Made by a program: the position numbers and the translations under genes. DNA of 21,027 nucleotides from a virus, in the IMG/VR virus record IMGVR_UViG_3300035698_001333, positions 1 to 21,027 of that record; one strand, written 5' to 3'. Below, in pieces: positions 1,071 to 20,144 of this stretch; position 1 is the stretch's first letter; each line of letters starts with the position of its first letter. A model generated the notes under the pieces. It was not told the origin of the DNA. It made no database searches and saw only the letters and a list, made by a program, of their open reading frames with translations.

Positions 1071-4000
1071 ATGGCCGGATTAACTGAAGAGCTCAAAGAG
1101 TTTTACATCAAGAACATGCCTGGCATGAACAACCAGATAGAGGATCTTGACCTTAAGGACAAGTGGGTTGAGAACGCTCAGAACGCTCGCTTTGAAGCAG
1201 AGCCTGGTTCAGTAGACAAGCGTGACCCGTTGACTTATTACAATTCAACAAGCAAGGGCTCAGGAGCCATTACTGGACTGTACCGCTATTACACCAAAGG
1301 TGGTGTAACCAAGTTCATTATGGTCCACGGTACTACCTGTTACGTTGGGACAGACTCTGGTGGCACGTGGACTGCTATCAGGACATCCCTGACTACTGGC
1401 AAACGCATGTCCTTTGAGGTGTACAGAGACCTCTTAATATGCTCTAACGGCTACGACAATCCATTTGTTTACGATGGGGCATCAACGAACACTACGTGGG
1501 AGTTAGGCGCTTGTAAGGCCGCTCTAGCCGCAGGAGGAAGTAACCTAGATAGTGCCGCGGTGTATTCATATAAGATTGCCATAGACACTAATGCTTACAT
1601 ATGCGATTCCGTTAGTAATACGGTAACAACCGACGCTTCAAACAGAAAGGTTACGCTGTCGAATATACCGTTGGGTCCGATTGGGTCTGACAGGAAGATC
1701 TACCGCACGGAGGGTGACGGCTCTGATTATTACCTCATTGCTACGATAGGCAACAACACGGAAACAACGTATGAAGATGACATAGCTGATACCACAGTCA
1801 CTGCTCTGCCTGCCGTTACAGATGACATGCCTAAAGGAAGCATTCTCAAGGTTCATAGGGAACGTCTATTCATCGCTGGTGACCCAAGTAACCCAAACAA
1901 GATTTATTATTCTAACCCTTATCTGCCTCACTACATAGACCATACGACCAACTCAACGTACATGGAAGTGGCCGCTGATGATGGTGATGAGATTATGGGC
2001 ATCCCGATACAGCTGGGTGTCATGGTCTGTATTAAAAAGAACACTTGTCGTAAGCTTTATATCACATCAGGAACATCAGGAGCAGATCCCTCTTCTTGGT
2101 ATGCTGAGGACCCGGACTCTTTCGTTGGGTCACCCGCGCAATGGTCTATTACACAGACGCCTTATGGCATTGTGTTCTTAGGGTGGGATCACTGGTACAT
2201 CCATGATGGGCAGACAGCCAGTCCTGTCATTCAGGAGTTTGACACAGAGGACATCCTGCCGGCAACCTATTCTGATGTCGTTGGGTTCTACCACAACGGG
2301 ATTATGCTCGCGGCGTATGCTGATAAGGTCGTAGCCAACCAGTTCCATGACAGGATTATGCGTTGGAACTTCAAGCGGGAGGCATTGAGTATAGACTTGT
2401 GGACATCAACCACGATCTCAGGGGCTAACTGCTTTGCGTCTAAGACAGGTGATGACGAAACAGGTGAGCTGTATTATGGAGATTCTGTAAATGGCTATAT
2501 CTTAAAGGCTAAAGAATCTGAGGAAGCGTACCGCTTAAGGACTAAGACTGAGGTAAATACTGGTTCTGGAGCAGACGTGTTCATTGGAGGTACTGAAAAT
2601 TCTCCGTACGTAGAGCTTGGAGCTACCACCGCAGCGAGTTCTATACCAGAGGGTATTTGTATCTTTTGGGATAGCACGGTAACGACACCCGGAGCTGGAT
2701 GGACTGAGATAACGACTTATGCCGATAGGCTGTTAATTATTAATAGTACGTATGGTGCTACTTCAGGTTCATCCACGCATACACATACTTACACAGGTTC
2801 ACTTGCTTCTACAACTCCATCCGGAATATGGATTGGTGAGAGCGGATCTGCAGGGGATTGGAATTCCCATACTCATACAATATCTTCTCACACAACTTCT
2901 GCTACGTCTGATTGCCCGAGGAATATAACACTAAGGATGTTTTATAAGAATACTGACACGACGGAATACGTTTTCCCTACTGGCTCATACATCATGTGGA
3001 ATGCGTCTGATATACCTACTGGTTGGCAGAGTGCCATTGACGTTTGGGGTTCAGGCATTGATGGACATTACTTGAGATTTGGTACATCAAGCCTTTTCTC
3101 ACCTAATAGTGCTGGGCATACTCACACGGGAACTGGAAGTAGTGGTGCAATGGTTGGCGGTGGTGCTGGTACAATGAGCACAGGGATAGGACAGTCTCAA
3201 GGAACTTACCATCCCCATTACCACACTTATAACTTGCCTATTCAAGGTGCTTCAATGGACGGGTGGGAATTGGACTACGCTGCCTTTGGATTGATAAAGA
3301 AAGTATCCCAAGAGAGCACGTGGAATGGTACGGAAATATATGGATACTGCTTATACACTGGAGCCGGTGCTCCCGGGAATGATTGGGCAGTTGATTCAAC
3401 CTATGACGGAAGATATATAAAGGTTAGCACTTCAACAATATCCACGGGGTCTGCTGCCAATGCTGAGCATACTCACACTGTTACAGGCTCAACGTCAGGA
3501 ACAGGAACACCTTGGGGTGGAGGTGATGACCGTACTGCTGGTGGTGGTGCGCATACTCACGCTGTCTCTGCTACCGTTGTTAATGCTACGCCAACACCTA
3601 CAGCCGTTACGTTCCGTCTTGTGAAGAAAATAATTGGCAAGATGCTTGATTACAACGACGCTTCAATCACAACGTACACGCATGGAGTATGGGTATCTCC
3701 AGCTCAGGAGATCAACGCAGATGCGTTGGGTAAGATGTTCTGGAATGAGTCGATTGCTAACGTTGCCAATGACAACGTTACTCTCTCCGTACGGCTGGGA
3801 GCAACTGAAGCTGCCGTTGATGATGCTACCTCTTGCACTGGGAACAGTGGGACTCATTCCTTTGGGGATGCTGACCATGGGTTGGTTGATACAGATAGAG
3901 TCATCATTGATGCTACCACTACAATCCCTCCGGGGTTTTCTAATTCAATATTGTATTATGTGTTACGCACTGATGCCAATAATTTCCAAGTGTCATTAAC

Positions 4001-4547
4001 TTCAGGTGGTTCTGCTGTTCAGTTCACTGCTGGTGGTGGAACTGACGTTACGTATAAGAAGTGGGACGAGTTGTTAACTGATCCCAACGGATCTACGATT
4101 GCGTCAACAACAAACGTGTGGTTGCAGTACTTGATAGTCCTTACAGCCGCTGACTCTCAAGTGACCAATCCACAGGTATATTTTACTAACGCATACGTTG
4201 TCAAGTACACGTACAATAAAAGCTCGACGGTGGCTGAGACATCTGTGAACTTCCAGTATGAGATTGGCTTTAGAAACTTTGACTTGCCTTTCTCAGATAA
4301 GTTCTTTAAGCTTGTTGGTACAACGCATGTTGGTGAAGTCGGTTCGTTTACGCTATACTGGGAGACAGAGAACGCAAGCAATTCCTTTACAGTATCACTT
4401 GACGCTAACCCAAATCGTTGGCAAAGCATGCTACATGACACGGCTCTTGGCAAGGAAATGAATTTCAAGGTAGGTAAGAACGACCTGGAGTCATTCAGGT
4501 TGAATGAAATAAAGGGGCTGTTCAGTCCACAGCCAACAATATTATGA
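1071..4547 (+). CDS. Nozzle-like tail protein with three collar-like His-rich modules inserted
   Basis: A 1,158-residue beta-rich protein. The N-terminal ~500 residues resemble phage tail nozzle/stabilisation proteins with a beta-propeller: an opening M-N-N-Q segment, an N-A-R-F motif, then repeated short strands with G-x-x-Y-R-Y, H-R-E-R-L-F-I-A-G and Y-S-N-P-Y blocks. Residues ~524-853 differ: three successive modules each have a strand with Trp or Tyr, a G-W or G-N-D-W step, and two His-rich loops of H-T-H-T type. This is the pattern of tail-collar domains. Residues ~926-991 look like another small inserted domain. The C-terminal ~160 residues return to beta structure resembling the nozzle body. 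Only a weak AGGA precedes the ATG at 1071. The gene ends in an ATGA overlap with the next. It would form the tail tip and perhaps contact the cell surface; that role is inferred. Confidence 0.65.
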   Translation: MAGLTEELKEFYIKNMPGMNNQIEDLDLKDKWVENAQNARFEAEPGSVDKRDPLTYYNSTSKGSGAITGLYRYYTKGGVTKFIMVHGTTCYVGTDSGGTWTAIRTSLTTGKRMSFEVYRDLLICSNGYDNPFVYDGASTNTTWELGACKAALAAGGSNLDSAAVYSYKIAIDTNAYICDSVSNTVTTDASNRKVTLSNIPLGPIGSDRKIYRTEGDGSDYYLIATIGNNTETTYEDDIADTTVTALPAVTDDMPKGSILKVHRERLFIAGDPSNPNKIYYSNPYLPHYIDHTTNSTYMEVAADDGDEIMGIPIQLGVMVCIKKNTCRKLYITSGTSGADPSSWYAEDPDSFVGSPAQWSITQTPYGIVFLGWDHWYIHDGQTASPVIQEFDTEDILPATYSDVVGFYHNGIMLAAYADKVVANQFHDRIMRWNFKREALSIDLWTSTTISGANCFASKTGDDETGELYYGDSVNGYILKAKESEEAYRLRTKTEVNTGSGADVFIGGTENSPYVELGATTAASSIPEGICIFWDSTVTTPGAGWTEITTYADRLLIINSTYGATSGSSTHTHTYTGSLASTTPSGIWIGESGSAGDWNSHTHTISSHTTSATSDCPRNITLRMFYKNTDTTEYVFPTGSYIMWNASDIPTGWQSAIDVWGSGIDGHYLRFGTSSLFSPNSAGHTHTGTGSSGAMVGGGAGTMSTGIGQSQGTYHPHYHTYNLPIQGASMDGWELDYAAFGLIKKVSQESTWNGTEIYGYCLYTGAGAPGNDWAVDSTYDGRYIKVSTSTISTGSAANAEHTHTVTGSTSGTGTPWGGGDDRTAGGGAHTHAVSATVVNATPTPTAVTFRLVKKIIGKMLDYNDASITTYTHGVWVSPAQEINADALGKMFWNESIANVANDNVTLSVRLGATEAAVDDATSCTGNSGTHSFGDADHGLVDTDRVIIDATTTIPPGFSNSILYYVLRTDANNFQVSLTSGGSAVQFTAGGGTDVTYKKWDELLTDPNGSTIASTTNVWLQYLIVLTAADSQVTNPQVYFTNAYVVKYTYNKSSTVAETSVNFQYEIGFRNFDLPFSDKFFKLVGTTHVGEVGSFTLYWETENASNSFTVSLDANPNRWQSMLHDTALGKEMNFKVGKNDLESFRLNEIKGLFSPQPTIL
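2640..3630 (+). repeat. Three degenerate collar-like modules within the nozzle gene
   Basis: At protein level three modules of roughly 100-115 residues follow each other (about 2640-2965, 2970-3305 and 3310-3630). Each begins with a short hydrophobic strand and a Trp/Gly turn, then has a paired set of His motifs: H-T-H-T-Y and H-T-H-T-I; H-T-H-T-G and H-P-H-Y-H; H-T-H-T-V and H-T-H-A-V. Modules 1 and 3 end in near-identical style (R-N-I-T-L-R-M and V-T-F-R-L-V). The DNA repeats are too diverged to be a recent duplication. Confidence 0.65.
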
Positions 4548-6472: not shown

Positions 6473-6672
6473 TGGCGATGAGTGCAGAGAACAAGCAGAA
6501 GATACGAGACCAAGTGAACTCTATGAGCCAAGCAGATCAGGAAAAGAGGCTTAGGAATATACTTATGCCAATCCCTTCATACGCAAAGGAAATGATGCAA
6601 GATGGCCAACCCGGAAAACAATCCATTTTCACCAAAGTTCAGGGCAAAACCCCAAAACCCAAGTCGTTCTAA
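6472..6672 (+). CDS. Small basic protein overlapping the giant virion gene
   Basis: A 66-residue protein. TGGAGGG at 6458-6463 precedes the ATG at 6472 by eight bases; a second in-frame ATG lies at 6478. The first 40 residues are helical and charged (K-I-R-D-Q-V-N-S-M-S-Q). The tail is basic, Lys/Pro-rich. The last 71 bases overlap the start of the giant gene in another frame, so both reading frames are constrained there. The family is not recognised. Coupled translation with the next gene is likely. Confidence 0.6.
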   Translation: MAMSAENKQKIRDQVNSMSQADQEKRLRNILMPIPSYAKEMMQDGQPGKQSIFTKVQGKTPKPKSF

Positions 6673-9600
6673 GACTGAAGTTTATAATCCCAACATGTTC
6701 ACCGAGCTTGGCTACGGTCTAGGTCGTGGCACAGAAGGTCTTATCAGCAGTGTTGGTGACATGGCTTACTGGATGGGTGAGATTGGTGGAGATGATGAGT
6801 TAGCTAATTGGGGTAAACAGCACGCGTCTTACTGGGAAAACCAGATGTCAACTGGACGTGAACGACCCCGCGAGGAGATGACTCTTAAGAACCATCCCTT
6901 TATACGCTCTGCTGGTCTGTTGGGTGAAGCGCTGCCTTCCGTAGCGTTGGGTTTTGCTGGAGGCGCTGCAGCATTCAAGGGTGCTAAGTTGGTCGGAGCA
7001 ATCCCAAAAGCTATTAAGTTTGCTCAGCTTGGTAAGATGGCTCAGCTCGGTTTATCCTTTGCCGGTACACAACCGTTGGGTGCTGTCATTGGTTCTAGCA
7101 TGTACAAAGAGGCTCGTGCCAACGGGCTATCCATTGGGAAGTCCAGTAACCTTGCCATGCTTGACTGGATGGGTGAATCAGTCCTTGAGATTGTTCCCTT
7201 GATGGAATATATGAAGGGTGGAAAGAACATTGCCCGCAGGTTCTTACGTACAGGTATCACTGAGGGCCTTGAGGAGGTCACTCAAGGTGTTTTCTCTGGT
7301 GCTCTCAAGGCATATGGTTGGAAAGGAACACAGAACCTCTACGAGGACATTACAGATGGTCTACTTGAACAGTTCATTGGTGGTTTCTTAGCCGGTGGGC
7401 TTCTCTCCGCAGCAGCTAATCCAGATACTATTGACAATATTGCAGGTGACTTATACCGAAAGCTTGGTAGAGATAAGGTCTACAACGAGGATGGCAGCAG
7501 GATTTCTTTAAAACAAGCTGAAGCTATGGTCACTAAGGTGGCTGATAACATTGCTGGAACAGCTAACAAATTACAAGAGTATGCCTACAAAGAGTTTGAA
7601 AGATCCGGGACATTAAAGAGCGAACGGCTAAACCGTGAAGATGTCAACAACGTCATGACCTCTACTAGCGTTACCATTGAGGGTGGCAGAGGCAAGCCAA
7701 ACCTATACAACAGGGTTGTATCAACAGCCAAAGATGCCGGTCAGAGCGTCTTTAACAATTTCTCCACAGAACAGAAAGAATCTGTAAATAAGAAGATTGA
7801 CGGAATTCTCCGTGGTATGAAGTTCCCAATAGGTGACGGAAGAACGATAGGCATGGACAGTGAGGAACTGAGAGCCACTAATTTATACGTGCAACTCCAA
7901 GAATCTGCAGCCAGTAACCCTGAGTTCTCGTCAGAAGATGTAAATCGTATCATGAACCAACAGCCTAAAGACGGCAAGGGCAAGTATACTGTTCACGTTG
8001 TTGGCGGTGAGTCAACGCAATCCTACGACGAAGAGGGCTCTAGTAACACTTCAGTGTTTGCTCCTTGGCTCATGTTCCCAACGGACGAGCATACTCTGCC
8101 AAGATCTCCGATGATCCAGTTAAAAGACCTTGCTAACATCATGCAACATGAAGGATATAAGGTTGAGTTCGTTGGGCAAGGATTAAACCCACGCAATCTC
8201 CATAAGAGATTCAATGACATGCTCAAGGGCAAGTGGAAGGCTGACCGTTCTGACTTCAGTACAAACGAGTCTGACCCTGATGATGACAACGACAAGATAT
8301 TAAGAGCGTCCGGATATAGCGAAGCCGTGTCTGGTGCTGTTAAGCTTATCCTTGAGATGATACACAACGAGAGTGCTCCGTTGTTCTTACGTTCATTCAA
8401 AGACGTTGATATTATATTCCGTCTTGCTAGGAACCTTGATGAGATTAAAACGTATGGATACATGCAGGATGGAAGCATTAGCATCTTTGCTGATGCCATT
8501 GAGCAACGATGGAAAGAAGGACACTTCGATATACAGGGCAAACACCCTTCGTTGGCTGAAGCTATTGCTCAGATAATGATGCATGAGCAGGTTCATTTCG
8601 TTATCAACACGAACAACAAGAAGAATCTTCAATCCTTAGCTAAGGGTGGAGAGCACGTTGGGTTGACGCTTGCTGAAGTCACAGAGAACAGGCTTAATAA
8701 GCTTGAAGGTAAGCCTTACCAGCAAGACCTTATAGATGACCCTGCTATGGCTGACGCTCTATTCGGTTGGTGTGAAGAGCATGTATGTGAAGCGTTGAGT
8801 CTTAAACACACGTATGGTATGACTGACAAAGCTGCTCGCGAACAAGCTAAGCCGTACTACGGTAACGTCACGCCAGAGACATGGCTTGAGCATTGGAATG
8901 CTACACACACAACCAAGATGACCATTAAAGATATTAACGAGGTAGCAGCTGTCATCTACGCCGGCGCAAAGCAACAGGCAACCCAACGCATGTCAGAGAA
9001 GAAGGCCAGAGGCCTGGAAGAGAAGTTGCGTGGGGTAGGAAGATGGACTGTTACACGGTTTAACCCAATCCGATCTTCCCAACGCGAAGCAGGTATGTTC
9101 TTCCGTAGGTTTGAACCTGAAACAACCAGCCCACAGTACCAGAATTACATTGATAATTTTAGAGAAGAGCTTAGGACTACGCTTGATAAGCGTAAGAAGC
9201 TGGACTTAGCCAAGATGATTAAGAACCTTGAGGCTAAGCAGAACGAACAGAAGGAGCTTAAGTTCGCAGGCTTTGCAACCGCAGAGGACAAGGCCTTAAT
9301 AGCTAAGGTTAAGCGACATAAGAAATACGCTATCACTGGTACGCCTGTCTCCCGCGCATGGATACTCCCAACGGGCGAGTACTTACACGTAAAGCAAGGA
9401 GAGGATCACTTTTACGTTATGAGTGAGGCCGGACTTAATAGTATGAAGTCCCGCAGCATCCGTAAGTCTTATGACCGCACGTATCAGATATGGAACATGG
9501 AGTCGCAGACACTCAAGTTGGTTCAGGCTGATCTTGACCAGAGCATAGGGCAAGACAAGGTGGACCAGTTCGTCATAGAGACTGGCGATGGTGACTTCGT

Positions 9601-12600
9601 TCTGCTTGACCAAGAGTATATCATGAATAACTTTAAGCTGTCAGGGCTATTAACCAAGCGGAACACGTCCTCTATTTACAACCAGGCTACCTTTGGACGT
9701 AAGATGTACGCCGGGTTTGGTCCATCCAACGTTCCCTCAGAATATTTAAACATCCAAGCTGTCATCCAAGGCATAGAATTCCCTACTGTTACAGCCGCTT
9801 ACAACTATTTATTGAAGAGTTCGCTTAAGGACTTCAAGTCTAAGGTGGGTAAGCCAACGTTTGTGGCCGGTCAATCTACGGATCCCAAGGAAATTGTTAA
9901 CATCTACGCAAAGCGTTCGGTTAAAACGCCTGAACGTCAGTCAGTAAACCTTGGAGAACTCCTATATCGTGCTCTTTCTATCAATCCTGATAAGATGGAG
10001 GCGTTTGCTGAGGACAAGAACCTTCCGCCTGAGCTTAAGGACATACAAATACGTGTCCGGAATGACGTTAACCGTAGGGCTAAGTACGAACGAGGCATGG
10101 CACAGGTAGAAAAGAAGAAACAAGCCGGCCTTGCTAAGGGACGTGGGTATCAGTCAGGTAAGATAGCTGAACCGTTTACTGACTCTACGGAAAGGCTTAA
10201 GCGTACCGGTGACGTGGTTGAACGTGAATCCGTAGAGAAAGGTCTAGACTTCGCTACAACGCCGCTCACGACAGGGCTTAGCGCTGTTAAGAAGGCTCTG
10301 GAGAGGGCTAAGAGGGTACCTTCTACCAAGCAGGCAGGTCAGTTCGATCTGTTTGAGAATGAGCGTATACAAATTCTCCCTGAGCGTAGCATAGCCATGG
10401 ACGCCTTGATTAAGAAGGCTTTGTATGAGGGGAACAGTGATGACGCACAGTATTACAAAGACCAACTGGTCGAGAACTTCACTCCGGAAGAGATAAATTC
10501 TAAGCTAGCAGAGATGCAAGCCAACGCTGGGTACTTCGCGGAGCAGCTAGAAACTGGCAAGGCAATGGAAGAGGCAAAGGACGTTGCTAATCCTAAGTCA
10601 TTGCAGGACATCAACTTAGTAGAGGATAAATATGATACTCAGAAGCTAAGAGAGATGGAAGAACGGGCCCGTCGCATGCAGGCACGTGAAGCCCACGATG
10701 AGAAGAAGCGTTGGGAACAGAACATCTTGGATGAGTTGGTTCAGATTGAAGAGGACGGCTCAGAGAACTTTGAGCTTCAGCATAAGTTCCTAGCGTGGGT
10801 TAAAGAGGTAACTGATACCGGTTTGCTAACCAGAGACCAGGCTTTTATCAAGGCTGAGGAGTCCTGGCGTGCGGTTGATACGGTCAACACACAGAAGGAG
10901 ATGCAGGCAGAGATAACCCAGACCGAACCAGCTAAGATGAAGTTTGGTGTAAAGAATGCTGAGCGTGATGCTGGTATTCATAAGAAATCTGCTGACCGTG
11001 TGCTATCCGAGAAGCTCCGCAAGGACTTGATGGCTATCAGCCGTTGGCTTTACGTTGTAAACAACTACCGTTTCAAGAGCAGAAGCAATGCTGTTGTTAA
11101 TAAAGGACTGAAAGAGCTTGTCCAAAGCCAAGGTGGTAAGGCTAAGCTGACTGCCAAGGACTTATCTGAAGTACCAATGGGTATAAGGTCAGAAGAAACT
11201 TCTGGTAACCTTGACTATGACGTAAGGATGTCCCTTAGATATATTAATAACAAGCTTAGTGATATACGCAAGAAGGGTTGGACCATATCAGCTAAGGCCG
11301 GGAAGCTTGTCCGTACACCAGCCGACGTTCTTGAGATCGACAGTACCGAAGCGTTGGATACGTACATATCGTCGCTAATTAGCGACATCAACTTGTTCCT
11401 TTCTGATGAGTTCAGGCAGGACTTCAAGGGCTTAGACGTAGCGTTGGATAAAGGTTGGATGAAGCTGACTGAAGGGTACCAGATGTTTGATGAGCTAACA
11501 GCCACTATGATATGGCTACCTGCTGGTGCTTACAAGCTTGATAGGACTGGTAACTTCGTTAACGTGACCGGACGCACCGTAGATATTGAGAAGGTCATTG
11601 ATAAAGAACAGGTCGTTACGCTACCTGATGGCTCAATGGTTGATGAGTCTGGAGCTAAGGTCATCTTGATGGGACCCGATGCCAACGGTGCACAATGGTA
11701 CTCAGCTATATCCAGGACAGCTAACATTGAAAAGACTTGGATGATGGACTTGGTTGAGAACCAGAAGAATGACTTTGGTCAAGCCTTTAACACTGCTACT
11801 GGTGAGATTAAGTTTGCTGGGTGGGGAGACATTGGTAACATCGCTAAGAAAACACGTGAGACCATTGACAGTAAACTACGCAACCGCCAGTACGAGAATG
11901 TCTCTGACACCCTTGACAAAGAGATACGTCCTGAGATGCGTGAGTATGGCTGGAAGCTTAAAGCATGGATTGCTTTACGCAAGAAGATTAACCCAATGCT
12001 TACTGATGAAGATATTGTCCTCGGTATAACACGGGATGATACTAAGAAGCTCAACAAGCTCGCGCCGTATAAAACGTTGGCTACAGAGGAACAGATCAAT
12101 GAGATAGTCCAGAATTACATGAAGGAACGCCACCTCTCAGGTCTTGGCGGGTTCAGCGGTGCACAGGTAACTAACTCTATTATACGTGCTGCTTGGAAGC
12201 ATGTACAGACAGCTTACCCAGAAGAGAATGAACTTGTGCAGAAAGAACGTCTTGATGCTCTCCTCACTCTTATGCAGTTGGCTAACCAAGAGATTATAAC
12301 GGTCAAGGGTACCGATAACTACCGGTTATCTGACATAGGCATGTCCCACTTGTGGCAAGAAGGACAGATTAAGACTCAAAGCCCTGCGAAAGGTAGGAAC
12401 GAGTGGGAAAGAGATGCTAACATTCATATGTACCAGCTTGTCATGAAACATCTTGGTCGTTCCGTATCTGACTCTGAACTTAGAGCATTAAAGAAGGCTA
12501 GACCAACGGCTATGTTCTGGAGCCAGCTTGATAAACCGCTACAAGACATCGTGCTGTTGTCTAAAAATAACATTGAAGATGTCGTATTCGAACAGTTGTT

Positions 12601-14800
12601 AGAATCTGGGTTGCTTGATCGTGCTGCTAATGAATCCAACGTTCGTAAGGGTTTCTCCCACATGGCCTGGGTGCACAGAGATGAGGAGCACAAGACCACA
12701 CGCACACAAACCTATCAGCTTACCCACGGAATGGTAAGACATAAGTACCGCACGGCAGCTGAGTCCATCTTAGCTACAAGCAATGACGTAGAAGCAGGTA
12801 CCGCACTCAAGGCTATCACTAATTATGCCGCGGCAATGGGTGATTACGTCAACACATCCATCAATAAGATGAACCAAGATGACATGATTAAGAAGCTTCA
12901 AGGGATGACCCCAGTTGATGAGGCCGGGCTCCCAACGGTGAAGGACAAGTCAGGTAAGGTCCACAAGCTCGGGTTCATTATATACGAGAACGATTACGCC
13001 GTCATGAAGAACGGAGTGCAGAGATCACATGCATTCATGACATCGTTGGGTTATCGTCAGCTCCGTAACGCGGAAGGCCTAACACGCAGACGCGGTGGAT
13101 CATTCTTTGACCCGTGGGTTCACAAGGATGTGTATACCCTGCTTAGTAACCTCTATGAAACAAGCAACCAGAACGATTACTTCAAGGCATTGCTTAAGGT
13201 CAACGGTGTTATTAAACGTAACATCATGCTTAGTCCTTATAACTTTGCCGTACAGATAGCTTCATCTCCTATGCTATGGCTGGATGACACTCAGAACCTG
13301 TGGAACCCTGACATAGGCATCAAACCATTTGATACCGTGCTTAAGCCACTGTTTCAATGGCATGGTGGCTTTAAGTTTGGTCTATTAGGTGGTGGTGTTA
13401 AAGAGTTCCAGAAACAGAAGGCTGACCCCGATCCTATGTCCCACATCAAGGATGCTTCCTATGACCAAGAGCTAGTCAATCTGTTCATACGTCATGGTGC
13501 ACGCAACTTCAACGTGCAATGGGTTAATGAATCCCTGTTTGATTACGAGATGCTCAACAAGCATCCGCTCTTACAATCCAACGTTGAGGAGCTGAAGGAA
13601 ACCGTTGGGAATAAGTTTGGCGTTGACAACTACGTGTTCAACCACTATGTCGGAAGAGTCATGTACCAGTACATGTCTGGTATGACAAGCCGGTTCTACA
13701 AGGACATGAGCAATCCTAACTCAAAGTCCTATGTCCATGATGAGACCACCCGCAAGGATGAAGCAGCCCGCCGCGCTGTAGCCTTTGCCAACGATACGTC
13801 AGGTATGATAGACAAGTATATCTATGGAGCTGAAGGACCTATGCTACAAGCTATGCTGTTTGCTCGTGACTTTACCATGTCATTCATGCGTCAGGTATCA
13901 GGTGCTACCTACCCACTGTGGAAGAAGCATCACAAGTACCGTGTTAAGAATGGCAAGGAGTTCAACGGCCTTCTTCATGGTGAAAAGTCAACGCATGAAA
14001 TGGAATACCTAAGTAAGTATTATCAAGCCCACCTTGGTAAGGTCGTTATGATTAAGTTCCTACTGTTCTCTATAATACAGTTTGGTATGAGCTTCCTTGA
14101 TGATGATGACGAGGACAAGGAGCAGGGCATCTACGCACCAAAGAGATGGATGTTTAAGAATGAACCCGGGAAGTTTGGTATGATCCGTGTCCCTAGAGTT
14201 GGTCCGTTTAAGGGCAAGGGTGATGAGCCTTTATTCCTTGACCCTCTGCTATGGCGAGAGCTCTCCCAAATGACCACCTTATTAGAGAAAGGACCACTGC
14301 GCTTTGCTAAAGGCAAGATGGCTTGGGTTCCTAAGACTGCTATTGAGGTCATTGGCAACCAGAACTATCGTGGTCAGCCCATCACTAACACAACCGGTGC
14401 CATACCATTCCACCTGGCGGCTGGAGACATGGCTAAACATGTAGCAGGATCTGCTCTCCCAACGTTCTTACGTGAGACAGGCCGCGTACCTGGCTGGGGT
14501 AAAGCTGCTTCAGGTATAGGTATCCCGATTAAGACCGGTACTAACGCTAAAGATGTAAGAGAATTAAGAAGGATACAGACAGTCGTAGCACAGAAGAGGT
14601 ACTGGGATCAGAAGAGGACGGACAAGATGTATGCCGCCACTCCTTCTCAACTACGAGCCATGCGATTTATTAAAGATAAACGCATGAGAATATCACAAGA
14701 GCAATTAAGAAATGAATTAAACCGAAGGAAAAATCCTTTGAAGAACACACGAAAACGTAACCGTGCTACTCTTAAAAAGAATAAGATATTTAACCGTTGA
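6602..14800 (+). CDS. Giant polyvalent virion protein with zincin-like domain (probable ejection protein)
   Basis: A 2,732-residue protein. AAAGGA at 6585-6590 lies 11 bases before the ATG. Residues ~95-165 and ~255-285 hold Gly/Ala-rich hydrophobic stretches that could insert into membranes. Residues ~620-735 look like a metallopeptidase: a strand G-S-I-S-I-F-A-D, a helix with H-E-Q-V-H at 661-665, and a downstream Glu cluster (E725, E726, E730). Residues ~1020-1145 resemble a degenerate NADAR domain. Q-F-D-L-F at 1247-1251 resembles a sliding-clamp-binding peptide. Residues ~1340-1380 are a charged coiled coil. The C-terminal ~500 residues have the style of large polyvalent phage protein domains: A-R-R-A-V-A-F-A-N-D, a Phe-rich helix, a hydrophobic segment at ~2480-2495 and D-P-L-L-W-R-E-L. 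The extreme C-terminus is very basic. Such proteins are packed in the capsid and ejected with DNA; the role here is inferred. Confidence 0.7.
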   Translation: MANPENNPFSPKFRAKPQNPSRSKTEVYNPNMFTELGYGLGRGTEGLISSVGDMAYWMGEIGGDDELANWGKQHASYWENQMSTGRERPREEMTLKNHPFIRSAGLLGEALPSVALGFAGGAAAFKGAKLVGAIPKAIKFAQLGKMAQLGLSFAGTQPLGAVIGSSMYKEARANGLSIGKSSNLAMLDWMGESVLEIVPLMEYMKGGKNIARRFLRTGITEGLEEVTQGVFSGALKAYGWKGTQNLYEDITDGLLEQFIGGFLAGGLLSAAANPDTIDNIAGDLYRKLGRDKVYNEDGSRISLKQAEAMVTKVADNIAGTANKLQEYAYKEFERSGTLKSERLNREDVNNVMTSTSVTIEGGRGKPNLYNRVVSTAKDAGQSVFNNFSTEQKESVNKKIDGILRGMKFPIGDGRTIGMDSEELRATNLYVQLQESAASNPEFSSEDVNRIMNQQPKDGKGKYTVHVVGGESTQSYDEEGSSNTSVFAPWLMFPTDEHTLPRSPMIQLKDLANIMQHEGYKVEFVGQGLNPRNLHKRFNDMLKGKWKADRSDFSTNESDPDDDNDKILRASGYSEAVSGAVKLILEMIHNESAPLFLRSFKDVDIIFRLARNLDEIKTYGYMQDGSISIFADAIEQRWKEGHFDIQGKHPSLAEAIAQIMMHEQVHFVINTNNKKNLQSLAKGGEHVGLTLAEVTENRLNKLEGKPYQQDLIDDPAMADALFGWCEEHVCEALSLKHTYGMTDKAAREQAKPYYGNVTPETWLEHWNATHTTKMTIKDINEVAAVIYAGAKQQATQRMSEKKARGLEEKLRGVGRWTVTRFNPIRSSQREAGMFFRRFEPETTSPQYQNYIDNFREELRTTLDKRKKLDLAKMIKNLEAKQNEQKELKFAGFATAEDKALIAKVKRHKKYAITGTPVSRAWILPTGEYLHVKQGEDHFYVMSEAGLNSMKSRSIRKSYDRTYQIWNMESQTLKLVQADLDQSIGQDKVDQFVIETGDGDFVLLDQEYIMNNFKLSGLLTKRNTSSIYNQATFGRKMYAGFGPSNVPSEYLNIQAVIQGIEFPTVTAAYNYLLKSSLKDFKSKVGKPTFVAGQSTDPKEIVNIYAKRSVKTPERQSVNLGELLYRALSINPDKMEAFAEDKNLPPELKDIQIRVRNDVNRRAKYERGMAQVEKKKQAGLAKGRGYQSGKIAEPFTDSTERLKRTGDVVERESVEKGLDFATTPLTTGLSAVKKALERAKRVPSTKQAGQFDLFENERIQILPERSIAMDALIKKALYEGNSDDAQYYKDQLVENFTPEEINSKLAEMQANAGYFAEQLETGKAMEEAKDVANPKSLQDINLVEDKYDTQKLREMEERARRMQAREAHDEKKRWEQNILDELVQIEEDGSENFELQHKFLAWVKEVTDTGLLTRDQAFIKAEESWRAVDTVNTQKEMQAEITQTEPAKMKFGVKNAERDAGIHKKSADRVLSEKLRKDLMAISRWLYVVNNYRFKSRSNAVVNKGLKELVQSQGGKAKLTAKDLSEVPMGIRSEETSGNLDYDVRMSLRYINNKLSDIRKKGWTISAKAGKLVRTPADVLEIDSTEALDTYISSLISDINLFLSDEFRQDFKGLDVALDKGWMKLTEGYQMFDELTATMIWLPAGAYKLDRTGNFVNVTGRTVDIEKVIDKEQVVTLPDGSMVDESGAKVILMGPDANGAQWYSAISRTANIEKTWMMDLVENQKNDFGQAFNTATGEIKFAGWGDIGNIAKKTRETIDSKLRNRQYENVSDTLDKEIRPEMREYGWKLKAWIALRKKINPMLTDEDIVLGITRDDTKKLNKLAPYKTLATEEQINEIVQNYMKERHLSGLGGFSGAQVTNSIIRAAWKHVQTAYPEENELVQKERLDALLTLMQLANQEIITVKGTDNYRLSDIGMSHLWQEGQIKTQSPAKGRNEWERDANIHMYQLVMKHLGRSVSDSELRALKKARPTAMFWSQLDKPLQDIVLLSKNNIEDVVFEQLLESGLLDRAANESNVRKGFSHMAWVHRDEEHKTTRTQTYQLTHGMVRHKYRTAAESILATSNDVEAGTALKAITNYAAAMGDYVNTSINKMNQDDMIKKLQGMTPVDEAGLPTVKDKSGKVHKLGFIIYENDYAVMKNGVQRSHAFMTSLGYRQLRNAEGLTRRRGGSFFDPWVHKDVYTLLSNLYETSNQNDYFKALLKVNGVIKRNIMLSPYNFAVQIASSPMLWLDDTQNLWNPDIGIKPFDTVLKPLFQWHGGFKFGLLGGGVKEFQKQKADPDPMSHIKDASYDQELVNLFIRHGARNFNVQWVNESLFDYEMLNKHPLLQSNVEELKETVGNKFGVDNYVFNHYVGRVMYQYMSGMTSRFYKDMSNPNSKSYVHDETTRKDEAARRAVAFANDTSGMIDKYIYGAEGPMLQAMLFARDFTMSFMRQVSGATYPLWKKHHKYRVKNGKEFNGLLHGEKSTHEMEYLSKYYQAHLGKVVMIKFLLFSIIQFGMSFLDDDDEDKEQGIYAPKRWMFKNEPGKFGMIRVPRVGPFKGKGDEPLFLDPLLWRELSQMTTLLEKGPLRFAKGKMAWVPKTAIEVIGNQNYRGQPITNTTGAIPFHLAAGDMAKHVAGSALPTFLRETGRVPGWGKAASGIGIPIKTGTNAKDVRELRRIQTVVAQKRYWDQKRTDKMYAATPSQLRAMRFIKDKRMRISQEQLRNELNRRKNPLKNTRKRNRATLKKNKIFNR

Positions 14801-16468: not shown

Positions 16469-16667
16469 ACATATTACCTGTGATATATGTGGACGTGAAA
16501 TCAGAACAGAGGACATACGCCACATAGGAATAACCCGCACTGATCCTCATAGTGATAGCGAGAAGCCAACGATGGTAGAGCAAGAAACATGCGTTCACTG
16601 TGCTGAGGACGTTCGTAAGTACATCCTCTTGCTATCAACCGAAGGAGGCGTACGTGAATCTAAATGA
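16461..16667 (+). CDS. Zinc-ribbon protein, function unknown
   Basis: A 68-residue protein with a GTG start at 16461 behind AAAGGA (16447-16452). C7-x-x-C10 and C44-x-x-C47 form a likely zinc ribbon with a charged loop between. The remainder is a short helix. It overlaps the HNH gene by eight bases and the Sak4-like gene by 14 bases, so it is translationally embedded in this operon. Such small ribbons are common in phage early regions and may bind DNA, RNA or a host protein. I see no evidence for a specific role. Confidence 0.65.
   Translation: MARHITCDICGREIRTEDIRHIGITRTDPHSDSEKPTMVEQETCVHCAEDVRKYILLLSTEGGVRESK
16642..16648 (+). promoter_or_regulatory. Strong ribosome binding site deciding the Sak4-like start
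   Basis: AAGGAGG lies five bases before the GTG at 16654. An in-frame ATG reading from 16600 exists but is inside the zinc-ribbon gene and adds 18 residues without homologous appearance, so the GTG is preferred. Confidence 0.65.
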
Positions 16668-17424
16668 CATGAAGCCTGCAGGAAACACAATTGACCGAGG
16701 TATATCAATCTGTGTGTATTCAAACCCCGGTGTTGGCAAAACCACGATGGCGACCTCCCTCCCACCCGAAGAAACATTGATAATCAATGCTGAAGCTGGT
16801 CTAGGACCTCTTCTAGGCAAGGGTCACTGCGTCTTTAACCTATTGCAGACCGTCAAGGACTATGAGTTCGAAAAGACCATTGACGAGCTCTACAAGCAGT
16901 TAAGGACAACGAAGCATCCGTTCAAGAACATCGTTATAGACAACTTGTCGGAGGTTGAAAACCAGTTGGTATTGAACCTGACCAAGCGCCGTGGGAAAGA
17001 AGGTCCAACGCTGCGTGAATACGGGGATTCTGCTTACAAGATCCGCGAGTGGATACACTTGTTCCGTGACCTTGTCTTTCAAAACATGAATGTAATTATC
17101 AACTGCTGGGAGTTCCCAATGGAGCTCAAGAATGTCGAAGGCAACGTAGTGACGCTCACAGTCCCTAAAATTGCCAAAAGCGTTGTACCCACGCTATGTG
17201 GTTGCCTCGACATGGTCGGACATCTGGAAGTGCACGAGAAAACAGGCAAACGTTGGCTACGGTTAAGGCCTAACGACGTAAGCCTGTGCAAAACTCAGTT
17301 CGCAGGTGTTGGAGAGGACCAATCTGGAGAGATAGCCGACTTTGGCATTATCTTCGGTAAAGTATTAAACCATGTGTACAAAGAGGTTAAAGACCAAGAA
17401 GCTAAAGAAAGGCTAGGTAATTAA
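16654..17424 (+). CDS. Sak4-like P-loop ATPase, single-strand annealing/recombination protein
   Basis: A 256-residue protein from the GTG at 16654. The Walker A motif is S-N-P-G-V-G-K-T at 23-30, after a short strand; the Walker B motif is N-I-V-I-D-N-L-S-E with D96. The strand-rich middle and the K-I-A-K-S-V-V-P segment fit the AAA_24/Sak4 RecA-like group used by phages for strand annealing or exchange. A partner exonuclease is encoded upstream and a DUF669 protein downstream, a common Sak4 neighbourhood; DUF669 proteins are thought to act as ssDNA-binding partners. The stop is immediately followed by the next start at 17425. Whether it acts by annealing or RecA-like exchange cannot be told from sequence. 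Confidence 0.75.
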   Translation: MNLNDMKPAGNTIDRGISICVYSNPGVGKTTMATSLPPEETLIINAEAGLGPLLGKGHCVFNLLQTVKDYEFEKTIDELYKQLRTTKHPFKNIVIDNLSEVENQLVLNLTKRRGKEGPTLREYGDSAYKIREWIHLFRDLVFQNMNVIINCWEFPMELKNVEGNVVTLTVPKIAKSVVPTLCGCLDMVGHLEVHEKTGKRWLRLRPNDVSLCKTQFAGVGEDQSGEIADFGIIFGKVLNHVYKEVKDQEAKERLGN

Positions 17425-17682
17425 ATGGAAATGGATGTCATATCAAAGACAGACGTTGACAAGCTCTTTAAACTAGGTCATAGGACTCTTCATTTTTACA
17501 AAATGTCTGGATTAATTAAACAGCCCATGAGGTTAGATAAGCACACCTACTGGGAGAAAGACTATATCATTCCAAGGCTAAAAGAAATAAATGAGTTAAA
17601 AAGAACACCATGTGAGGCTTGTGGCAGAGTACATAATCTTACTAGCATTAACTTCCTAAACAACAAAAGGAGTAATAAATGA
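17425..17682 (+). CDS. MerR-like helix-turn-helix protein with C-terminal CxxC
   Basis: An 85-residue protein. Residues 5-58 follow the MerR HTH layout: I-S-K-T-D-V-D-K-L-F, then R-T-L-H-F-Y (about 20-25), G-L-I (29-31), an aromatic wing Y-W-E-K-D-Y and R-L-K-E-I-N-E-L. The usual dimer coiled coil and ligand domain are absent; instead there is C63-x-x-C66 followed by a short tail. This suggests a compact DNA-binding protein, such as a phage regulator or excisionase-type architectural factor, rather than a metal sensor. The ATG at 17425 abuts the Sak4-like stop; another in-frame ATG is at 17431. No strong ribosome site is seen, so coupling is likely. It overlaps the DUF669 gene by four bases. 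Confidence 0.65.
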   Translation: MEMDVISKTDVDKLFKLGHRTLHFYKMSGLIKQPMRLDKHTYWEKDYIIPRLKEINELKRTPCEACGRVHNLTSINFLNNKRSNK

Positions 17683-18113
17683 ACATAGACTGGGATGTTG
17701 ATACAGATTCAGGCGGTACGTATGACAATGGACCTTACAGAGTCCGCATTAAGTCGATTGAGGAAGCCCAAGCGTCAACAGGCAGCCCTCAGTTAGTAAT
17801 AAAGTCCGAGTTCTGTGATGGTAAGTACGAAGGCAAGACGTTGACTGACTGGATTACGTTGGTTGACACGGCCGGTTGGAAGTTGGTTAAGTTCATTAAA
17901 GGCATGAGCGTTGACATTGCTGTCGTTAAAGACACCATTGGAGATACCAACTCAGGTCAATTCCGTGGGTTCCTCAACAAGTTGATCGGTAAGACAACGA
18001 TTTGGGTCGTTGGGAAGAAAACACGCGATGGAGTCGTAAACACAACTGTTCTTGATTATCAGCCCGATCCAAAGGTTGAAGAAACAGCGAAAGAAGAGGC
18101 ATGGCTTGAATAA
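17679..18113 (+). CDS. DUF669 family protein, probable ssDNA-binding partner
   Basis: A 144-residue protein. AAAGGAG at 17666-17672 precedes the ATG by six bases. The N-terminus D-x-D-x-D-S-G-G-T-Y with a following beta-rich body (Y-R-V-R-I-K-S-I, L-V-I-K-S-E-F) and G-K-T-L-T-D-W-I fits DUF669, a phage family found beside Sak4 and Erf-like recombinases. The C-terminus is acidic (V-E-E-T-A-K-E-E-A-W-L-E), as in single-stranded DNA-binding proteins that recruit partners. It likely coats ssDNA made by the exonuclease. The family assignment is by recalled pattern and context. Confidence 0.7.
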   Translation: MNIDWDVDTDSGGTYDNGPYRVRIKSIEEAQASTGSPQLVIKSEFCDGKYEGKTLTDWITLVDTAGWKLVKFIKGMSVDIAVVKDTIGDTNSGQFRGFLNKLIGKTTIWVVGKKTRDGVVNTTVLDYQPDPKVEETAKEEAWLE

Positions 18114-18858
18114 AGAATCCAACGACTATGGTTGGGTTAAGTTGCACCGCAAGATAGCGTTGACTTCGTTCTATAGCAACGTAGATGCAACCTATCTTGC
18201 AGTGCACCTCTTGCTCCACTCTAATTTCAAAGACAGCGCGTTTAATATTCACCACACGTCTGCTATATGTCGCAGAGGTCAATATCTTGGTGGTTACAAG
18301 CGTCTTTCAAAGGAATTAGGGTGGGGTAAAACACGTGTAAGACGTGCTATAAAGCGGTTAGCAGATGCTACGTTTCTTACAACTTACTCAACAAATCAGT
18401 ACGCCATCCTAACCATATGCAATTACAATAGTTACCAAACCCGGGTGTCACCTCAGACCCCCCTGAGTGCTCACACTGGACCCCCTGGGGTGCCAACTGG
18501 GACCCCGGTGACTGCTCAACCTGGACCCCATCATAAGAATGTTAAGAATGTTAAGAAAGAAAAACCTATAGTGGGTGTCAAAGATTTTGATTATCTTTGG
18601 TCTTTGTATCCACGCAAAATCGGGAAGAAAGTATCTGTTCGCCACATGACATCATCCATAAAAACTGCTGTTGATGTTGAAGATTGCGCCCGCGCCATTC
18701 AAAACTACCTAAATTCACGTTCCTACCAAAATGGCTTTGTGCAATATGGCTCTACTTTCTTTAATAATTGGACTGACTGGGTTACTGACCCCGATCCGGG
18801 TGAGGACCCTAAGTTAAAAGAGTTAAAGGAGCTCGTAGATGCAGAAAAAGACAAGTAG
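18106..18858 (+). CDS. Replication initiator / replisome organizer-like protein
   Basis: A 250-residue protein with a TTG start at 18106 behind an AGAGG site, overlapping the DUF669 gene by eight bases. The N-terminal ~110 residues have the D-Y-G-W-V-K-L-H-R-K-I opening seen in phage replisome organizers, then a winged-helix region (R-G-Q-Y-L-G-G and G-K-T-R-V-R-R-A-I-K-R-L). Residues ~114-142 are a Pro/Gly/Thr linker that also carries DNA repeats (see iterons). Residues ~143-155 are Lys/Asn-rich. The C-terminal domain, F-D-Y-L-W-S-L-Y-P-R-K to S-T-F-F-N-N-W-T-D-W, is a familiar end of phage replication proteins that contact the helicase or loader. It should melt the origin and recruit host DnaB-type helicase. 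Confidence 0.75.
   Translation: MNKESNDYGWVKLHRKIALTSFYSNVDATYLAVHLLLHSNFKDSAFNIHHTSAICRRGQYLGGYKRLSKELGWGKTRVRRAIKRLADATFLTTYSTNQYAILTICNYNSYQTRVSPQTPLSAHTGPPGVPTGTPVTAQPGPHHKNVKNVKKEKPIVGVKDFDYLWSLYPRKIGKKVSVRHMTSSIKTAVDVEDCARAIQNYLNSRSYQNGFVQYGSTFFNNWTDWVTDPDPGEDPKLKELKELVDAEKDK
18446..18530 (+). repeat. Four iteron-like repeats in the initiator gene, candidate origin
   Basis: Four copies of a 22-23 bp unit begin at 18446, 18468, 18491 and 18513. Each starts TG and carries a GACCCC core at 18456, 18479, 18501 and 18524, with spacings of 23, 22 and 23. Spacings of 22 and 23 are not multiples of three, so protein repetition alone does not explain the pattern. An A-rich tract follows immediately. 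Lambda and several other phages keep their origin in this part of the initiator gene. Confidence 0.6.
18531..18570 (+). other. A-rich tract next to iterons, candidate DNA unwinding element
   Basis: The tract contains two direct 9-bp repeats, AAGAATGTT at 18535-18543 and 18544-18552, then AAGAAAGAAAAA. It contrasts sharply with the C-rich iterons just before it. It encodes the Lys/Asn-rich linker, which may partly explain the composition. Confidence 0.4.
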
Positions 18859-19300
18859 TAGTGACAGAATGAAGCGAAAGTGGGCAGCAGCAAAGGAGAT
18901 GTCAAAGGACGCAAGAAAGTGGGCAGCAAAGGAGATGTCAAAGGACTGGGCAGCAAAGGAGATGTCAAAGCACGTACTTGATGCTCTTGTCCCTAAACAA
19001 TTTGGAAAGTCCATTAAGATTGACATTCCGGAGCACAGCCATATATTTGGTGGTGCAAGGGGAAGTGGGAAATCCTCCGCTTTAACTGCTTCTGACATGC
19101 AAAAGGCTGCTTATGCGTTGGGTAATAGTACCCACACGCATCCCCAGATGCTCGTGCCGACGGCAACGCAAGTAATCAACGCCCAGAAAGCCAACATGAA
19201 GAAAGCAAACCCAGCGTCATCCCAGTTCATTGAGCCTGAAAGAGAGCCGGAAAAGCAATCGTTGGATAATATCGTTGATGACATCATAAGGGGGCTGTAA
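18839..19300 (+). CDS. P-loop-containing protein with N-terminal tandem repeat, unrecognised
   Basis: A 153-residue protein. AAAGGAG at 18826-18831 precedes the ATG by seven bases, and the first 20 bases overlap the initiator gene. Residues ~13-45 carry a tandem amphipathic repeat, three copies of W-A-A-K-E-M-S-K (first copy with an extra Ala). Residues ~62-80 hold a strand followed by G-A-R-G-S-G-K-S, a good Walker A match, but no Walker B or further ATPase fold is evident in the remaining ~75 residues. The C-terminal part is low-complexity, ending in an acidic helix. It could be a minimal nucleotide-binding protein, a truncated ATPase, or a chance Gly loop. It is coupled to the next gene by TAATG. 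Confidence 0.6.
   Translation: MQKKTSSSDRMKRKWAAAKEMSKDARKWAAKEMSKDWAAKEMSKHVLDALVPKQFGKSIKIDIPEHSHIFGGARGSGKSSALTASDMQKAAYALGNSTHTHPQMLVPTATQVINAQKANMKKANPASSQFIEPEREPEKQSLDNIVDDIIRGL
18882..18970 (+). repeat. In-frame tandem repeat in the P-loop protein gene
   Basis: GGGCAGC begins three copies at 18882, 18921 and 18948, each followed by an AAAGGAGATGTCAAAG block. The copy distances, 39 and 27 bases, are multiples of three, so the repeat is best explained at protein level. Each copy includes a Shine-Dalgarno-like AAAGGAG, with ATG too close to serve as a start. Confidence 0.75.
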
Positions 19301-19779
19301 TGCTTATAAGTGACGGAAGTTGGGTATCTGAAGCATGTAAAGCCATATCCAAGGTGGCTACAGACCAAGATGACTTGGAAAGACGCTTGTCCATACTCAC
19401 GGCTGATAAGATGTTGGGTTTCTTCAAGCCGTTGGTTAAACCTGCAGTGCCGCTCACGGTGATGAAGTATCGTGCTCTAAACAGGGAGCAAAGGTTCTCT
19501 TTCAATAAAGACAATCCTGATTGGGCAGAGAATCCCGCCATTTCTGAATTCCTAGCTGAAGAGTCCGGGGTCGATTGTGGCAACCAATCCAACGCTTGGT
19601 GGCTTACAAACTGCATGAAGTATGACATTGGCGAAGAGCGAAAGGACAAGGTTCAGTCAGCGCTGAACTTGTACAGCCTTGACATACGAAGGCTAAACAC
19701 CCCACGAAAGCATGCTGACCCTGAAGTTGAGCATGTCCGCAATACGTTTGGTGGGATTGTAGGTGAGCATGCCGAGTAG
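19300..19779 (+). CDS. 159-residue early-region protein, unrecognised
   Basis: The ATG overlaps the upstream stop (TAATG at 19298-19302) and follows a run of G (GGGGG) that can act as ribosome site. The protein is soluble, mostly helical: an N-terminal D-G-S-W-V, a helix with E-R-R-L-S-I-L-T-A-D, a Pro-rich turn (F-K-P-L-V-K-P-A-V-P), a basic R-A-L-N-R-E-Q-R-F, and a central patch with C-G-N-Q-S-N-A-W-W-L-T-N-C. The tail is charged. No catalytic motif or known fold is recognised. Its location after the initiator suggests a replication accessory or early host-takeover protein, but that is position only. Confidence 0.6.
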   Translation: MLISDGSWVSEACKAISKVATDQDDLERRLSILTADKMLGFFKPLVKPAVPLTVMKYRALNREQRFSFNKDNPDWAENPAISEFLAEESGVDCGNQSNAWWLTNCMKYDIGEERKDKVQSALNLYSLDIRRLNTPRKHADPEVEHVRNTFGGIVGEHAE

Positions 19780-19987
19780 ACACTACCCTTGGGGGTTGGC
19801 TTTGGCGATGTACACAGCGGAGCCTGATAAACACTACAAAGCATATCAGAAATTATGTCGTTATTATGATGATGAAAGGGTTTGGGTGGAAGAGAATTAT
19901 GACAAAAGAAAAAATACCGCAAAATGCAAACGAGATAAAGTTCGTACAAACAAAAGACCTGATAAAAGAGTTGGCAAGTCGGTTTGA
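19763..19987 (+). CDS. Small basic protein, overlapping both neighbours
   Basis: About 72-74 residues, from GTG at 19763 or ATG at 19769. The N-terminal half is rich in Tyr, Trp and His (M-Y-T-A-E-P-D-K-H-Y-K-A-Y), the C-terminal half strongly basic (R-T-N-K-R-P-D-K-R). It overlaps the upstream gene by ~17 bases and the next gene by ~89 bases. The ribosome site is weak. The C-terminal basic half may be a by-product of the overlapping frame, so the reading frame is only moderately supported. No family is recognised. Confidence 0.4.
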   Translation: MSMPSRHYPWGLALAMYTAEPDKHYKAYQKLCRYYDDERVWVEENYDKRKNTAKCKRDKVRTNKRPDKRVGKSV

Positions 19988-20144
19988 TACGTCAATCTTC
20001 GTTGCAAGCAACAACGAGACAAAGGACAGAGCCGCGTTGGGATGGCATTCTAAAGGAGATTATTTTACTCTTCTTGGGTTAATAAAATGGATAGAACATA
20101 GGATTGATGAAATGGAGCCTGAAGATCCAAACGAACAACCCTGA
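19899..20144 (+). CDS. 81-residue protein, unrecognised
   Basis: The ATG at 19899 is preceded by GGAAGAGA a few bases upstream and gives a natural start (M-T-K-E-K-I-P). A longer in-frame reading from 19866 is possible but adds Met/Gly/Phe residues encoded in the neighbouring frame. The protein has a helix-rich pattern with D-L-I-K-E-L-A-S-R-F, a strand T-S-I-F-V-A-S, a G-W-H-S-K-G loop and a helix L-I-K-W-I-E-H-R-I-D-E-M, ending acidic. It resembles small phage early proteins but no function can be given. It overlaps the next gene by 38 bases. Confidence 0.6.
   Translation: MTKEKIPQNANEIKFVQTKDLIKELASRFDTSIFVASNNETKDRAALGWHSKGDYFTLLGLIKWIEHRIDEMEPEDPNEQP

Follow-up and report, generated by a model that had tools for sequence, protein, structure and literature searches.

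Positions 18443–18574 of the window, a 21,027-bp virus record, very probably form a theta-type origin of replication inside the phage's own replication initiator gene. The segment combines an array of four candidate iterons with an adjoining A-rich tract, and we infer that it is bound by the initiator, melted, loaded with helicase and active as an origin. A candidate origin within the initiator gene had been proposed in an earlier note on this DNA. Support for the proposal came from the family of the initiator, from the position of the array in the linker of the protein and from selection at the DNA level, and the origin is regarded as putative. An iteron origin inside an initiator gene is as such already known from several phages; the new part is the helical phasing together with the AAGAATG tract across a family of initiators.

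The Initiator Gene and Its Product

The gene at 18106–18858 (plus strand) codes for a replication initiator or replisome organizer of 250 aa, if translation starts at the TTG at 18106, an assumed and uncertain start. By family match it is a phage replication initiator. The protein matched phrog_2514 ("DnaD-like helicase loader") with 2.4e-20 over residues 8–153, phrog_270 ("replication initiation protein") with 3.4e-17 and phrog_186 with 1.8e-11, and tblastn revealed relatives in 146 phage records, many of which are annotated as replisome organizer or DnaD-like helicase loader. The gene is located downstream of Sak4-like and DUF669/SSB-like genes, the usual neighbourhood of replication genes. 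Of the window proteins that were scanned, none was recognised as a helicase.

The gene product is composed of an N-terminal winged helix, a linker and a C-terminal partner domain. Residues 11–111 (18136–18438, plus strand) constitute the winged helix-turn-helix (wHTH) DNA-binding domain, as delimited by pLDDT and by family alignment A1, in which the domain closes with the motif NYNSYQ. AlphaFold2 predicted the winged-helix blocks, with HTH helices and wing strands, at pLDDT values of at least 90. The linker mostly had values of 38–61 and was followed by weakly predicted helices. Foldseek retrieved mostly winged-helix DNA-binding proteins with weak scores (best E 0.04), and a PDB sequence profile search gave only weak matches of the winged-helix type. 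According to the predicted model, the array encodes residues 113–141 in a disordered linker between the wHTH and the C-terminal part, and due to its disorder this linker would be free to carry DNA sites.

The C-terminal domain (18575–18855, plus strand) was assigned by a match to phrog_9327 ("primosomal protein", 2.8e-5) and by the shared motifs LYPRKIGKK and STFFNN..W, which are also present in ORF34 of Lactobacillus phage Lc-Nu and in the replisome organizer of Dulem virus 39. It resembles primosomal or O-like C-termini and is the putative part for binding of a partner protein, helicase or loader. The curated DnaD/DnaB_2 C-terminal domain (PF07261, TIGR01446) was not found in the window protein and matched no more than 2 of the 37 proteins of the family. 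"DnaD-like" is therefore the name of the N-terminal family and does not stand for a DnaD domain.

Close to the 5' end of the gene we also observed an inverted repeat (18140–18209) with 18-nt arms, which are 89% complementary and separated by 34 nt. Possible roles are that of a further site for the initiator or of a hairpin in the mRNA.

The Candidate Iteron Array

The candidate iteron array (18443–18529, plus strand) consists of four units of 22–23 bp with GACCCC cores at 18456, 18479, 18501 and 18524. The units, their positions and the spacing of 23, 22 and 23 bp had been described before and were borne out. Each unit has a weaker GTGYYMA-like half upstream of its core. In the 21 kb window, GACCCC is clustered at 18456–18524 alone and the other copies are scattered. 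A 14-bp matrix derived from the four cores scored 17–19 bits on the array versus no more than 10 bits on the rest of the window. The GC content of the array is 68%, which is in the top 0.02% of the window, and the 93-bp stretches covering the array had the highest out-of-frame self-identity of all such stretches in the 21 kb.

Alternate units lie 45 bp apart, as had also been reported. This spacing is in frame: the 42-nt halves of the array at the 45 bp offset are 79% identical and result in a 15-residue protein repeat, in which 6 of 15 residues are identical by eye. For the null model we kept the protein fixed and redrew the codons from the window's own genes in 20,000 trials. The self-identity of the array at lag 22 was matched in 3/20,000 trials and that at lag 23 or lag 45 in none (0/20,000 each); none of the 20,000 trials produced four GACCCC motifs. 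The signal of the window at lag 11 was marginal (1089/20,000). Since the protein-fixed null rarely or never gave the periods of 22, 23 and 45 bp, the 15-residue protein repeat does not account for the DNA repeat.

Periodicity and Synonymous Constraint in Related Initiator Genes

We used a profile of the winged-helix domain to collect 91 initiator ORFs from viral contigs and named phages, 44 of which were mutually less than 75% identical and served as the non-redundant set. For the 102 nt after NYNSYQ, the self-identity of the DNA was judged against versions of the respective gene in which synonymous codons had been permuted. The mean Z of the 44 linkers was 3.10 at lag 11, 2.36 at lag 22, 1.05 at lag 23, 0.99 at lag 33 and 0.98 at lag 44. 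At lags 9, 10, 12, 21 and 24 it was near 0, and Z was also near 0 for a control stretch within the wHTH of the 44 relatives. When the genes were grouped into 15 clusters of less than 40% identity, mean Z at lag 11 was 3.13 (95% CI 2.56–3.69) and 13 of the 15 clusters showed a Z of at least 3 at lag 11, 22 or 23.

At these three lags, a Z of at least 3 was reached by 30 of the 44 linkers versus 12 of 1528 control windows from other genes of the same loci. Nine of the 44 relatives lacked strong periodicity (Z<2.5). The earlier note had named relatives that keep the protein without the repeats as evidence against its reading; such relatives, with weak or no detectable repeats, do occur and make up a minority.

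The repeat units vary between phages, as exemplified by TGTCCATCAAG, CTAACAAACAA, GACCAGCAATC and GACGAAACGCA. After rotation, 37 units had a loose 11-mer in common, G-N-M-M-A-N-C-A-R-N-Y, with 4.23 bits for the consensus versus 3.05 (sd 0.07) in column-permuted controls. Against this family 11-mer, the units of the window scored lower than shuffles when read on the coding strand and about the same as shuffles on the opposite strand. Judged from these scores, the sites of the window would have diverged in sequence and kept their spacing.

A comparison of the repeats with synonymous sites in relatives had also been suggested. It was made on 29 close pairs of relatives, the window itself having no relative that is close enough. 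Synonymous divergence at conserved residues was 0.057 in the linker and thus about fourfold lower than in the adjacent wHTH (0.214), and the direction was nearly uniform over the 29 pairs, which represent about ten groups and are not independent. In the same pairs, the linker protein was less conserved than the wHTH. Together with the codon-preserving nulls and the out-of-frame family periodicity of 11, 22 and 23 bp, this low synonymous divergence showed that the linker DNA is selected beyond the need of the protein. The nulls and the family periodicity also back the earlier interpretation of the 22–23 bp half-period as a sign of selection at the DNA level.

A scan of viral contigs for spaced GACCCC yielded at least 120 stretches, which look like chance or unrelated repeats. 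Among the 80 loci listed with spaced GACCCC, one weak match to the initiator domain was found (E 0.0012), in a gene without GACCCC. A search for closer relatives by the C-terminal domain gave none, and the scan of genome contigs with the single window protein gave one from Bradyrhizobium as the only relative.

In alignment A3, the C-terminal domain that follows the same wHTH and linker differs between phages and can be DnaB_2, DUF7833, Phg_2220_C or the STFFNN type. This suggests that swapping of the C-terminal domain may occur at the origin itself.

The A-Rich Tract

Directly 3' of the array is an A-rich tract (18530–18574, plus strand) with 27% GC and 9-bp AAGAATGTT repeats, which we consider a candidate DNA unwinding element. 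Between 18534 and 18557 it harbors 2.7 perfect copies of TAAGAATGT. The segment 18530–18574 is within the weakest 0.24% of all 45-mers of the window and is one base off the weakest 45-mer of the initiator gene. An A-rich tract with 9-bp direct repeats next to the array, as previously claimed, is thus present, but its 9-bp repeat is in frame (KNVKNVKK). From this phage alone, selection at the DNA level and at the protein level can therefore not be separated; the family data allow this.

The AT content of the 44 genes climbs to about 0.74 at about 90 nt past the end of the domain, directly after the repeats. In the 300 nt following, AAGAATG was observed 34 times versus 10.2 times (sd 2.6) with permuted codons. 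AAAAATG, which is synonymous with AAGAATG and more AT-rich, was depleted in the linkers of the 44 initiator genes (L001–L141), with 5 copies observed versus 17.7 expected. In this family, copies of AA(G/T)AATG are mostly 9 bp apart. Because AAGAATG is preferred to the synonymous and more AT-rich motif, the tract appears to be recognised by its sequence and not just as a weak helix.

Comparison with Known Origins

In the alignment, ORF34 of Lactobacillus phage Lc-Nu, a putative replication protein, has 32% identity to the window initiator, the same wHTH and the same C-terminal motifs. The linker of ORF34 also contains 11-bp repeats (TGTCCATCAAG) and an AAGAAT tract. Its iterons differ in sequence and are units of 11 bp versus 22–23 bp in the window, and ORF34 is followed by a DnaB-like helicase gene, of which none was recognised in the window.

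The Tuc2009 Rep2009 (ORF16) and TP901-1 Rep (ORF13) genes code, like the gene of the window, for DnaD-like replisome organizers, and they carry an origin of direct repeats as is proposed for the window. Both replisome organizers bind to regions of direct repeats in their own genes, and these regions represent the origin (PMC8965321); the record of Tuc2009 has the note "contains origin of replication". The rep linker of Tuc2009 showed 11-bp periodicity (Z 3.2) followed by a tract of short repeats, while the periodicity signals in TP901-1 were weak. Our winged-helix profile did not match either protein, and their repeat units have sequences other than those of the window.

The ori of phage lambda, located in gene O, contains four repeats with annotated starts at 39034, 39054, 39078 and 39101, and its spacing of 20, 24 and 23 bp corresponds to about two helical turns as in the window. 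The iterons of lambda are inverted-repeat sites. Those of the window, by contrast, are direct, GACCCC-cored units without an obvious dyad. No sequence homology was found between lambda O and the family profile, and no P-like loader was recognised downstream of the window initiator. The layout agrees with the analogy to lambda O that had been drawn in the earlier note, as in lambda, too, the initiator gene has iterons followed by an AT-rich tract halfway along its length (PMC7466680). A direct precedent for origin DNA that dictates the linker peptide comes from lambdoid phages, where the presence of two extra iterons makes the O protein 13 residues longer (PMC7466680).

The G38P protein of phage SPP1 (gp38) binds the oriL repeats within gene 38, which are accompanied by an AT-rich DUE (PMC6316719). 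Compared by description, G38P and oriL are similar in layout to the candidate of the window. As differences, SPP1 has a second origin, oriR, as well as a separate loader, G39P, and the helicase G40P.

Alternative Explanations

The repeats may be sites through which the initiator mainly regulates its own gene, or the replication operon, and may not serve as an origin. Iteron-binding initiators like the plasmid Rep proteins often repress their own genes, which counts for this explanation, and the segment is inside a transcribed operon. The array is, however, deep in the coding region and away from a promoter; promoter-like matches at 16500–20000 did not exceed those in shuffles, and there was none at the array. 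Furthermore, the adjoining tract of low stability with its conserved motif fits an unwinding element and not an operator, and in phages whose function has been proven, the origin is at this very place. We therefore consider autoregulation as the main role improbable.

Just as improbable is an accessory origin or a site of replication restart, with the principal origin in a part of the genome that has not been sequenced. In SPP1, gp38 binds to two repeat regions that are far apart (PMC6316719), and the window is, by its open ends, a fragment of a genome that may have other origins elsewhere. Against this, no second match to the 14-bp iteron matrix was found in the 21 kb, and the site within the gene is the origin in most of the described relatives. 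The GC skew was monotonic on this one-strand fragment of 21 kb and thus carries no information on the position of an origin.

Selection could instead act on the linker peptide, as a proline/threonine-rich spacer or as KN repeats in contact with DNA or with partners, which would make the DNA repeat a consequence. Both the spacing of 45 bp and the A-rich 9-bp repeat indeed keep the frame. The periods of 22, 23 and 11 bp, however, are out of frame and are not produced by nulls with a fixed protein, and the family has no excess at multiples of 3 (9, 12, 21, 24). The linker protein also diverges more than the wHTH, and its synonymous sites about four times less. A repeat of protein origin is hence even less probable than the two explanations above. 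The least probable explanation is neutral tandem duplication by replication slippage without function: disordered linkers tolerate tandem repeats, but slippage in a coding gene should favor multiples of 3, while the family peak is sharp at 11 and 22 (23) bp, peaks at 9, 10, 12, 21 and 24 are missing across 15 clusters of less than 40% identity with different units, and the low synonymous divergence represents constraint.

Proposed Mechanism and Implications

For the origin within the initiator gene we propose the following mechanism, the binding, melting and loading steps of which are modelled on lambda, SPP1, Tuc2009 and TP901-1 (PMC7466680, PMC6316719, PMC8965321). Several copies of the winged-helix initiator would bind to the four iterons of 22–23 bp on one face of the DNA, as one unit corresponds to about two helical turns. 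The bound initiators could wrap the DNA or stack into a compact nucleoprotein complex, which would strain and melt the adjoining A-rich AAGAATG tract. Recruitment of the replicative helicase, or of its loader, to the exposed strand would then fall to the C-terminal domain of the initiator. The origin would be selected at the DNA level and the linker peptide would be a by-product.

The extension to the whole diverse family with wHTH, linker and partner domain has about an even chance of being correct: its linkers would hold a helically phased origin with contiguous, phage-specific sites at intervals of 11 bp (or 11+11/12) and, after these, a conserved unwinding tract of AAGAATG repeats that is recognised by its sequence beyond its AT-richness. 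We found no description of family-wide 11-bp phasing with an AAGAATG tract in the open-access literature, which is a weak statement of absence. If the extension is true, sequence alone could suffice to locate the origins of many unclassified phages and to assign them to their initiators. For most metagenomic phages the origin is not known, and the codon-preserving periodicity test finds a likely origin within an initiator gene by sequence only and without a cultured host. The linker would also be a case of an amino-acid sequence that is largely dictated by the function of the DNA. With the initiator and the site that is probably cognate to it readable together as one unit, the evolution of initiator specificity could be studied.

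Other Features of the Window

No Rfam or tRNA feature was found in the window. The ORF at 1071–4547 codes for 1158 aa and has an N-terminal head-closure-like match (phrog_8040, residues 15–294) and one further marginal match, and 6602–14800 is a single ORF of 2732 aa. The ORF that follows the initiator gene (18839–19300) had a marginal terminase-like match (phrog_979, 0.025) and no known family. Near its start it contains three in-frame repeats of 27 bp (WAAKEMSKD-like) at 18884, 18920 and 18947.
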